NCBI GenBank assembly: GCA_905182735.1
Contig: CAJJCT010000013.1
Location: 50,463 to 114,462 of the forward strand
DNA length: 64,000 bases
Source of the DNA: Candidatus Marivariicella framensis
GTDB lineage: Bacteria > Bacteroidota > Bacteroidia > Flavobacteriales > Flavobacteriaceae
Direction of reading: 5' to 3'
The position numbers were made by a program, and so were the translations under genes. The notes below the pieces were generated by a model that saw only the letters and a list, made by a program, of their open reading frames with translations, was not told the DNA's origin and searched no databases. Shown here one piece after another: positions 33,696-37,166 of this stretch. The stretch's first letter is position 1. Each line of letters opens with the position of its first letter.

Positions 33696-34584
33696 AAAGT
33701 ATGCAGCAATTGATATTGGGTCTAATGCAATCAGAATGCTTATATCTAATGTTATTAAAGGTAATAATGATAATGTTTTTTTTTCTAAAAACTCTTTGGT
33801 TAGAGTTCCGATTAGATTAGGAGAAGACACTTTCACTTCAGGAAACATTTCTAATCAAAACATCAAAAGAGTGTTAAAAGCAATTAAAGCTATTATGTTG
33901 CTAATTAAGATTCATGAAGTTGTTGATTTCAATGTCTATGCCACTTCTGCTCTTAGAGAAGCAAAAAATAAATCATCTGTAGTTAGGCTAATTAAAGATA
34001 AGACGGGTGTTGAAATAGAAATAATTGATGGTGAAAAGGAAGCAAAACTAATTTCATCATCTAATTTATTAAAAGAAATCAACAAACAATCTGATTTTTT
34101 GTTTGTTGATGTGGGTGGAGGAAGCACAGAGTTTTCAATTATCCATAACGGTAAAAAAGTTATTGAAAAATCCTTTAAGATAGGTACAGTTAGAATTCTA
34201 AAAAACATGATCTCTGATTTGTTATGGAATGAAATGCAGAATTGGATAGTTGATAATACAAAAAAATTTAAAAAATTGATTATTCTTGGAACAGGAGGCA
34301 GTATAAATAAAATTCATAAAATGACTCAAGAAAAAGAAGATAAGCCAGTAAGCTTGAAAACTTTAAAACTCCTGAATGAAACATTATCATTACTGACGTA
34401 TAATGAAAGGATTATTAAATATCAATTAAACCCTGATAGAGCAGATGTAATTTTACCCGCATCTCAGATATATATAAGAATTATGGAATGGAGTAAAGCT
34501 TCTAAAATTTTTGTTTCAAAAATTGGACTGTCAGATGGAATGATTGAAGAGCTTTATAGATCAAAAAATAATTTAAACATCTAA
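33685..34584 (+). CDS. Ppx/GppA family exopolyphosphatase
   Basis: AAIDIGSNAIRMLI, FVDVGGGSTEFSI; overlaps ppk1. Confidence 0.93.
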   Translation: MKIEKYAAIDIGSNAIRMLISNVIKGNNDNVFFSKNSLVRVPIRLGEDTFTSGNISNQNIKRVLKAIKAIMLLIKIHEVVDFNVYATSALREAKNKSSVVRLIKDKTGVEIEIIDGEKEAKLISSSNLLKEINKQSDFLFVDVGGGSTEFSIIHNGKKVIEKSFKIGTVRILKNMISDLLWNEMQNWIVDNTKKFKKLIILGTGGSINKIHKMTQEKEDKPVSLKTLKLLNETLSLLTYNERIIKYQLNPDRADVILPASQIYIRIMEWSKASKIFVSKIGLSDGMIEELYRSKNNLNI

Positions 34585-36245
34585 GTCAAAAGTTTTTCTT
34601 AAAATATTAATAGCAGGGTTAATTAATTTCATTTTCTCATACTTTTCTTCCGCTGTGTAAATAAAAGTTTTGTCATTACTTATATTAATATTAATATTAA
34701 AATCTATTTTATGATTATTTAATTTATTTCTTAAATAAGGCAACATAGAATCTAATTCTTTGTTTAATTCAACTTTATTAATAGAGTTAGCCACACTAAA
34801 TTCAATATTAAATTCATTATTTATTTTTGGAGAATCCATTTTTAAAATAGCTAACATATTTTGATTACCCTTAGACTCTATTTTTTCCAGATAATCTCCC
34901 CAATGAATCATTAAATCCTCAATTCTAAATGAATCTTGTGAAAGATTTTTATTACTGTTATCTTTATTTTTTCGGGCAACCTCTTTTTTCAGCTTTATAC
35001 TTTTTAAAGAAAACCCTGAAACTCCATTAGTGTTGAATTTATCAAAATTATTTGACTTTACAACTTCATCTTCTTCTTTACTTAAAAGAGGTTTTGATTT
35101 AAACTCAATTGATTTTTTATCCTGTTTAATTTTTTCAATTTTATTTTTTTTAAAATACTTACTTGAAATTATTAATTTTTTTTTTCTCCATTAAAATGGA
35201 GTGAGGCAAGCTGCATTAAACAAAGCTCAGAGTTCAGCCTCTTATTTATTGAAAATCTATGATTAGATTGGGCCTCTTTTATTATAGAAAGTGCATCTAA
35301 TAGCCATTTAAAATCAAAAGTTTTAGATTGATCAAGATATTTGTTTCGAGTTTTTTCCCCAACCTCTAATAATTCAATTGTTAAAGAATCCTTACATAAA
35401 ATAAGTGTTCGAATATGATTAGCTAAACCATTTATAAAATGCAAAGACTCATAACCCTTATTAATAATATTATTGAATTCTAAAAGTATTTCTGGAATTT
35501 TATTTTCTTTTATTAAATTAGAAACAGAAAAGAATGTTTCATAATCCAAAACATTAAGATTTTTAGACACTTCAGCCGTTGTAAGATTTCCAGATGTAAA
35601 ACTTACCATTCTATCAAAAATTGACAAGGCATCCCTCATAGCGCCATCAGCCTTTTGTGCAATTAAAATTAATGCGTCATCATCAAATTTTAATTTTTTC
35701 AAATTACAAATCTCAACTAAAAAAAGTTTTATTTCTTTAACTGTAATACGTTTAAAGTCATAAATCTGACACCTTGAAAGAATGGTTGGAATGATTTTAT
35801 TTTTTTCAGTAGTAGCTAAAATAAATATTGCATGTTTAGGAGGTTCTTCAAGCGTCTTTAAAAAGGCATTAAATGCTGATAAAGATAACATATGAACCTC
35901 ATCAATTATATATACCTTAAAGTTTCCAATTTGAGGGGGAATTCGTATTTGATCATTCAGTTTTCTTATATCATCAACAGAATTATTTGATGCAGCATCT
36001 AATTCAAAAATATTAAAAGCAAAGTCGTTGTCTGAAGAATTATTTTCTTTATCATTAATTGCTTTAGCAAGAATCCTGGCACAAGATGTTTTACCAACAC
36101 CCCTTGGTCCACAAAACAATAAAGCTTGTGCAAGTTGGTTAGTTTCTATAGCATTTTTTAATGTTGAGGTGATTTGATCTTGTCCAATTACTTGGTCAAA
36201 ATTTTGTGGACGATATTTTAATGCTGAAACAGTAAATGACTCCAT
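34573..36245 (-). CDS. dnaX: DNA polymerase III subunit tau, full-length product requiring a -1 shift at an A10 run (35185-35176)
   Basis: After GEKK the -1 frame reads KLIISSKYFKKNKIEKIKQDKKSIEFKSKPLLSKEEDEVVKSNNFDKFNTNGVSGFSLKSIKLKKEVARKNKDNSNKNLSQDSFRIEDLMIHWGDYLEK... without a stop, merging with the separate ORF 34573..34911. Confidence 0.85.
35172..36245 (-). CDS. dnaX: DNA polymerase III subunit gamma (zero-frame product of dnaX)
   Basis: KYRPQNFDQVIGQDQI, GPRGVGKTSCARILAKAIN, LEEPPKHAIFILATTE; ends NGEKKN* immediately after the A-run. Confidence 0.93.
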   Translation of the reverse strand: MESFTVSALKYRPQNFDQVIGQDQITSTLKNAIETNQLAQALLFCGPRGVGKTSCARILAKAINDKENNSSDNDFAFNIFELDAASNNSVDDIRKLNDQIRIPPQIGNFKVYIIDEVHMLSLSAFNAFLKTLEEPPKHAIFILATTEKNKIIPTILSRCQIYDFKRITVKEIKLFLVEICNLKKLKFDDDALILIAQKADGAMRDALSIFDRMVSFTSGNLTTAEVSKNLNVLDYETFFSVSNLIKENKIPEILLEFNNIINKGYESLHFINGLANHIRTLILCKDSLTIELLEVGEKTRNKYLDQSKTFDFKWLLDALSIIKEAQSNHRFSINKRLNSELCLMQLASLHFNGEKKN

Positions 36246-36332: not shown

Positions 36333-36337
36333 TATAA

Positions 36338-36632
36338 AGCAGGCTATCTTATCGCTGTATTAAATACAATAGAGAGGAAAGTCCGGACACCATAGAGCGG
36401 TATAGCGGGTAATTCCCGTCCTTTTACTTTATGTAAAAGCGGACCAGTGCAACAGAAAGCAAGTACAGTTAGGCTGTAGTGAAATCGGTAAACTCTATAC
36501 GGTGAAACGCCAAGTATATCTGCAATCAAGAGTTGCTCGCTCAATGTAGAAGGGTAGGCGGCTTGAACTAAACAGTAATGTTTAGTCTAGATAAATGATA
36601 AGACGCGACAGAATCCGGCTTATCGGCCTGCT
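36338..36632 (+). ncRNA. rnpB: RNase P RNA, bacterial type A
   Basis: GAGGAAAGTCCGGACACCATAG, CAGTGCAACAGAAAGCAAG, GGTGAAACG and 3' ACAGAATCCGGCTTATCGGCCTGC pairing with 5' GCAGGC; T-rich tail. Confidence 0.93.
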
Positions 36633-37166
36633 TTATTTTTTAAAAAATGAAAAAGAATTATTTCCATATTTTCTAGTTTCTTTAAAACCTAATATTTTAT
36701 TTAATTTAACTTTAGAGAAGTGTTCAACTATAATTAAACCATCATCTATCCAGTTTTTTGATATTAGTATTAATATTATTTTTTCATATTCTTTTATATC
36801 AAAAATGTATGGAGGATCTAAAAAAACAATACTAAAGTTTCTTGAATTAAAATTTAAAAAATCTAGGACTTTCTTTTTGACGGATAGTATGTTTAAATCA
36901 AGATCATTAGAAACTTGATTAATGAAATTAATACATTTTTCATTTTGATCTACTGATGTTATTGTTTTAACTCCTCTTGATGCAAATTCAAAACTAACAC
37001 TTCCAGTTCCAGAAAAAAGATCAAGTACACTAATGTCTTCCCATCTATACAAATTATTTAAAATATTAAAAAGCGCCTCTTTTGACCTGTCTGTTGTAGG
37101 TCTTACGGATAAATTTTTAGGAGGGTTTATTATCCTTCCTTTATGAATTCCTGAAATAATTCGCAT
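36633..37166 (-). CDS. rsmD: 16S rRNA (guanine(966)-N(2))-methyltransferase
   Basis: MRIISGIHKGRIINPPKNLSVRPTTDRSKEALFNIL, DLFSGTGSVSFEFASRG, FLDPPY. Confidence 0.95.
   Translation of the reverse strand: MRIISGIHKGRIINPPKNLSVRPTTDRSKEALFNILNNLYRWEDISVLDLFSGTGSVSFEFASRGVKTITSVDQNEKCINFINQVSNDLDLNILSVKKKVLDFLNFNSRNFSIVFLDPPYIFDIKEYEKIILILISKNWIDDGLIIVEHFSKVKLNKILGFKETRKYGNNSFSFFKK

Follow-up and report, generated by a model that had tools for sequence, protein, structure and literature searches.

The window analysed here, a 64,000-nucleotide stretch of contig CAJJCT010000013.1, belongs to a MAG of 1.9 Mb (40 contigs, 86% complete) from a flavobacterial genus that also includes the MAG MED704, and carries dnaX on its minus strand (Table 1). 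The zero-frame ORF of this gene encodes the gamma protein, with matches to the NCBIfam models PRK14971 (E=5.5e-161) and dnaX_nterm (E=1.3e-110) and to Pfam PF13177 and PF22608, and its 3' end reads ...GGA GAA AAA AAA AAT TAA. Past the ten As, the -1 frame translates as LIISSKYFKK...RKTFDLDV* and is open for 200 codons, giving two predicted dnaX products, a gamma of 357 aa and a tau of 557 aa. The initial annotation had the dnaX ORF ending just past an A10 run (35185-35176), followed the -1 frame without a stop for about 200 codons into a 112-aa ORF, and estimated products of about 357 and about 557 aa; our translation bears out these coordinates, frames and sizes alike. Upstream of dnaX and divergent from it lies a class A RNase P RNA (rnpB; Rfam RF00010, 201.7 bits; 36336-36638, plus strand), which covers a spurious 66-aa ORF at 36344-36544.

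Table 1. Features of the dnaX locus, in positions of the window.
Feature	Position	Strand	Basis
dnaX zero-frame ORF (gamma, 357 aa; AAA+ clamp-loader domains I-III)	35172..36245	-	NCBIfam, Pfam
RNA hairpin CTCCAT-TTTA-ATGGAG (6-bp stem, 4-nt loop; 3' end flush with the A-run)	35186..35201	-	Folding
A10 slippery run	35176..35185	-	Sequence; A9-A13 in 150/168 Bacteroidia dnaX
Gamma stop TAA, right after the AAT codon that closes the run	35172..35174	-	Sequence
Tau-specific C-terminal extension, -1 frame (200 codons and stop TAA, 34575-34573)	34573..35175	-	Homology, dN/dS
Mechanical ORF of 112 aa, the C-terminal portion of tau and not a separate gene	34573..34911	-	Frame, homology

Homopolymers are prone to error and the window comes from a MAG of 86% completeness, and both facts would suit a reading of the A10 split as a sequencing or assembly indel, or as a decaying pseudogene. 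Against this, all five congeners in which dnaX was detected carry A10 at the same codon and share the gamma/-1 split, with the zero-frame stop falling 1-2 codons past the run and the -1 frame extending for about 190-207 codons (dnaX was also searched for in the sixth congener, whose MAG is 68% complete, without a match). Within the genus, the tau extension has a dN/dS of 0.20-0.55 and an excess of third-position change, indicating purifying selection. The two-frame layout is also found in the single-contig genomes G029, G031, G038 and G053, and a search of the window genome for a second full-length DnaX returned none. Because the congeners share both the A10 and the split, and because the tau frame is under selection, we dropped the explanation by error or decay, whose probability we regard as close to negligible; judged from these sequence comparisons, the window dnaX is a real case of recoding and not a sequencing indel. 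The initial annotation had proposed that recoding at A10 joins the gamma ORF to a -1-frame tau, had suggested looking in relatives for the run and the overlapping frame, and had held that relatives with 11 or 8 As in one frame would speak against it. Run and overlapping frame are both kept in five of five congeners, which show the opposite of that adverse pattern, namely A10 and two frames; this conservation, together with tau homology and a dN/dS below 1, upholds the proposal.

Homology also identifies what the downstream frame encodes. The -1 extension matches the in-frame tau tails of 85 of 104 tau-default relatives at E<=1e-3, and aligns to positions 455-613 of PRK14971 (dnaX gamma/tau; E=3.3e-18), which is also the best-fitting model for the gamma part; a Pfam search of the tau tail found no significant domain. 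It is conceivable that re-initiation instead yields a separate protein from this frame, for example from the 112-aa ORF, unfused to gamma, given that the gamma stop lies near the downstream frame and that an ATG is present at 34911. We consider this very unlikely, since the -1 frame is open right from the run, the tau homology reaches upstream of that ATG (in some relatives starting from residue 1-2), and 104 relatives encode a continuous tau.

We gathered 221 distinct Bacteroidia dnaX loci (locus L005, of MED704 (G005), and L060 are one and the same contig) and assigned states in a reduced set of 168. An A9-A13 run is present in 150 of these 168 genes, and in 121 it is exactly A10. It sits at the end of the gamma domains, mostly near codon 350-400, and it is kept at GC 0.23-0.67 (gene GC 0.26 to 0.67). 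The probability of keeping the run under synonymous recoding averages 0.30 per gene, with the least likely cases at 0.001-0.03, several of them GC-rich. The higher the GC, the lower it is: the GC-rich class averages 0.08 and the two most GC-rich genes have 0.001-0.002, and in the GC-rich genomes G067 and G148 the dnaX run is the sole A10 of the whole assembly. A homopolymer of at least about nine nucleotides is thereby conserved beyond coding need, as is expected of programmed transcriptional slippage. In the window genome, where 39 further runs of A10 or longer exist (about 21 of them in the sense orientation in ORFs of at least 150 aa), an A10 alone is unremarkable because of those other runs, and we dropped rarity as an argument there.

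Outside Bacteroidia, the run occurs in a Chlorobia-like family, in both polarities, and in some other families; in several further outside-class families we found no run of A6 or longer at dnaX. The outside-class groups are presumably Chlorobia or Ignavibacteria. Among the tau-default Bacteroidia genes, six (L183, L184, L202, L154, L174 and L214) have no A9 or longer run near the domain boundary, and these may make tau alone or use another signal. In the highly reduced 0.3-Mb genome G051, dnaX (L059) ends at 345 aa and is followed by T11, and the downstream tau frame is absent; here tau may have been lost.

The default product, i.e. the one read in the zero frame, differs repeatedly among these genes: it is tau in 104 of the 168 and gamma in 62, with two genes left unassigned. 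Among the gamma-default genes, tau lies in the -1 frame in 58 and in the +1 frame in 4, so both directions occur, as programmed transcriptional slippage would have it, with a strong bias to -1. On a maximum-likelihood tree of the DnaX N-terminal domain, a quick tree whose deep branches are weak, at least 25 switches between tau-default and gamma-default are needed. Alignments of neighbouring genes trace several of the switches: the run length is unchanged and an adjacent 1-nt indel flips the frame. This is seen between L015/L140 (gamma) and L008/L012 (tau), between L027 and L029, and between the window gene and its near tau-default relative L062 (aligned as L003 and L062); in the Chlorobia-like family the run length itself varies, with A9 in L330 and A10 in L331/L332.

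The stops around the run are arranged according to polarity. Where gamma is the default and tau lies at -1, the zero frame closes 1-5 codons past the run in 54 of 54 genes, and the run itself occupies all three codon phases (22/18/14). In tau-default genes, stops lie within 5 codons of the run in the -1 frame in 95% of cases (control 40%) and in the +1 frame in 80% (control 36%). Slippage on a tau template would thus be expected to yield gamma, each slipped frame being closed by a stop a few codons on. If the element sets the gamma/tau mixture in either template frame, small adjacent indels could flip the polarity with both proteins kept. Ordinary ORF calling on dnaX from Bacteroidota shows gamma alone or tau alone, and our results suggest that the two proteins are both made by most of these genes; with polarity reversed in nature at least 25 times around a run that stays fixed, they amount to an evolutionary experiment on recoding.

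Abutting the run on its 5' side, the window RNA is predicted to form the hairpin CTCCAT-TTTA-ATGGAG (-6.1 kcal/mol; z -4.3 against dinucleotide shuffles and -2.9 against synonymous shuffles), in which GGAG adjoins the run as the 3' arm. The initial annotation, right about the recoding, had missed both this hairpin and the spread of the element among relatives. Scanning 24-nt windows across 180 loci, we find that stability peaks at one place alone, directly against the run (mean z -2.01); elsewhere values are near 0, apart from a minor dip (-0.58) about 36-42 nt upstream and a value of +0.29 just downstream. The native run-abutting sequence is more stable than its synonymous recodings (z -0.99, versus -0.06 at control positions; p=2e-14). 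By lineage, the signal is present in the remaining Bacteroidia orders (z -1.83, n=76) and weak both among the other families of Flavobacteriales (z -0.52) and beyond the class (z -0.53); it persists after thinning of similar proteins to 90, 56 or 29 diverged genes (z -1.09 to -1.48). By run length, mean z is -2.07 for A10, -0.34 for A9 and -1.00 for A11.

Hairpins of unrelated sequence stand at the same place in distant lineages (CCGTGCC-GGCA-GGCGCGG in L205, CCGCATC-GGCT-GATGCGG in L190). Perfect stems of at least 5 bp within 6 nt of the run occur in 73 of 172 genes (42%), compared with 24% at control positions, and because this enrichment is modest we relied on folding energies. Covariation within the family at a fixed register gives 62% of cells paired, compared with 39-55% for slid versions, which makes no convincing case for it; a search within the family for two-sided, compensatory stem changes gave no excess, and the hairpin register shifts between lineages. 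In several lineages the hairpin is weak or absent, which counts against a model that includes it. Of the 40 runs of A10 or longer examined in the window genome, dnaX has the strongest hairpin; the remaining sense runs located in long ORFs show, on average, folding no better than background. That the genome tolerates about 21 of these in ORFs of at least 150 aa is a point against slippage at A10 as an explanation; the missing hairpins may be the reason for this tolerance.

The dnaX gene of E. coli, which gives the same two products as the window dnaX, is tau-default and undergoes -1 ribosomal frameshifting at A_AAA_AAG, which has a Shine-Dalgarno-like element upstream and a stem-loop on its 3' side. 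Programmed -1 ribosomal frameshifting at A_AAA_AAA heptamers, or sliding on poly-A, could likewise give tau from an unmodified A10 mRNA of the window gene. Slippery heptamers exist inside A10 in every phase, and tau lies in the -1 frame in most gamma-default genes; the distribution of 58 genes in -1 to 4 in +1 is also predicted by -1 ribosomal frameshifting and in this respect counts against transcriptional slippage. Yet 7 nt would be enough for the ribosome and the run is kept at 9-13, mostly exactly 10. Four genes require +1, and the near +1 stops of tau-default genes are not called for by a -1 ribosomal shift, which needs a -1 stop only. Structure, moreover, is 5' of the run and abutting it, with none 3' across genes: the 55 nt downstream give a mean z of +0.13 (thinned sets -0.17 to +0.12), and in the window the run is followed by no more than a weak, AU-rich fold, unlike the E. 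coli-type 3' stem-loop. With no folding signal across genes, a downstream stem-loop as a general stimulator was dropped. Taken with these frames and folds, ribosomal frameshifting appears unlikely as the source of tau in the window gene. The initial annotation had offered two precedents, transcriptional slippage in Thermus and ribosomal frameshifting in E. coli; for the window dnaX, frames and folding favour the former and speak less for the latter.

Ribosomal use does look likely in two run-less lineages, L054 and L068. L054 (G055, minus strand) has no long A-run at the gamma stop and reads A_AAA_AAG-TAG, followed by a hairpin of ~14 bp and then A8; among the genes examined it is the closest to E. 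coli dnaX. L068 is gamma-default, with no A-run at the stop, and reads G_GGA_AAG-TAA. In both, the signals at the gamma stop look ribosomal, as if replacing the run. L021 and L069, also gamma-default without an A-run, have just GAA AAG TAA and a modest downstream fold.

We consider it likely that the window dnaX makes gamma and tau through RNA polymerase slippage at A10, assisted by the nascent hairpin. Faithful A10 transcripts would give gamma. The RNA-DNA hybrid over the run would be almost wholly rA:dT and could realign during transcription, and the nascent hairpin, flush with the run, would fold at the hybrid edge and promote realignment. Gain of one A, or loss of two, would bring the -1 frame of the transcript into register and let it be translated normally to tau, and in tau-template relatives the same slippage would produce gamma. 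Run, hairpin, frames, the homology and selection of the tau frame, clade-wide conservation and repeated switching can be read from the sequences; the timing of slippage at transcription, its stimulation by the hairpin and the ratio of the products we infer.

Two systems offer precedents. In Thermus thermophilus, transcriptional slippage at A9 in dnaX makes gamma and tau (Larsen et al. 2000; PMC1088944, PMC5009743), with transcripts off by a non-multiple of three giving gamma (PMC1088944). As described in these accounts, the Thermus gene has the same layout as the tau-default Bacteroidota genes, with an A-run and near stops in both slipped frames. The window gene, by comparison, is gamma-default, and its run has an abutting hairpin. 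In a Roseiflexus insertion sequence (IS), slippage of RNA polymerase is stimulated by a stem-loop that the nascent RNA forms just 5' of the slippage motif, and the hybrid is 9-10 bp (Penno et al. 2015; PMC5009743). Folding energies place a stable RNA hairpin in the same 5'-adjacent position in dnaX, and the IS resembles the window gene, with a 6-bp stem and a 4-nt loop immediately 5' of the motif. A ten-nucleotide run with a hairpin at distance zero would fit the geometry of a 9-10 bp hybrid. The two differ in that the IS motif, as described there, is T5C5 and gives a 1-nt deletion, whereas the window has A10 in a core replication gene and would reach tau most simply through a single insertion. 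In the precedents, slippage driven by a hairpin tends to deletions, which is a point against this explanation.

Two-ORF dnaX genes were described by Antonov et al. (2013; PMC3711429), in the portion available, as a GeneTack cluster of 17 genes from 12 genera, nine with ten As, for which transcriptional realignment was proposed. The window gene resembles that type as there described, with gamma in the zero frame ending at poly-A and tau reached by a -1 shift at ten As. By its sequence it is a member of this two-ORF A10 type, one that relatives conserve and whose downstream frame is under selection. The same portion of that report does not mention a 5' hairpin, class-wide retention of the run or repeated polarity switching, and a literature search, most subscription papers excepted, found no description of a dnaX 5' hairpin, class-wide conservation or repeated polarity switching. 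As far as these sources extend, the hairpin-A10 module, its class-wide retention and the repeated switching are thus apparently new, the two-ORF A10 dnaX itself having been known since 2013.

More broadly, we lean towards the view that most Bacteroidia and their Chlorobia-like relatives carry a frame-neutral element, an intrinsic-terminator-like hairpin plus A10, around which the default product may drift freely and for which run-less lineages could substitute a ribosomal signal. If true, the hairpin-A10 module would take nascent-hairpin-stimulated slippage beyond an IS element, into a core replication gene throughout a bacterial class. Elsewhere in the window genome, the 5' hairpin that ranks second in strength (-5.0 kcal/mol) among the runs of A10 or longer belongs to an A10 in the middle of a 672-aa ORF (L250; G000:C12 near 50204) that looks like an M3-family oligopeptidase, where slippage, unintended or used, is possible.
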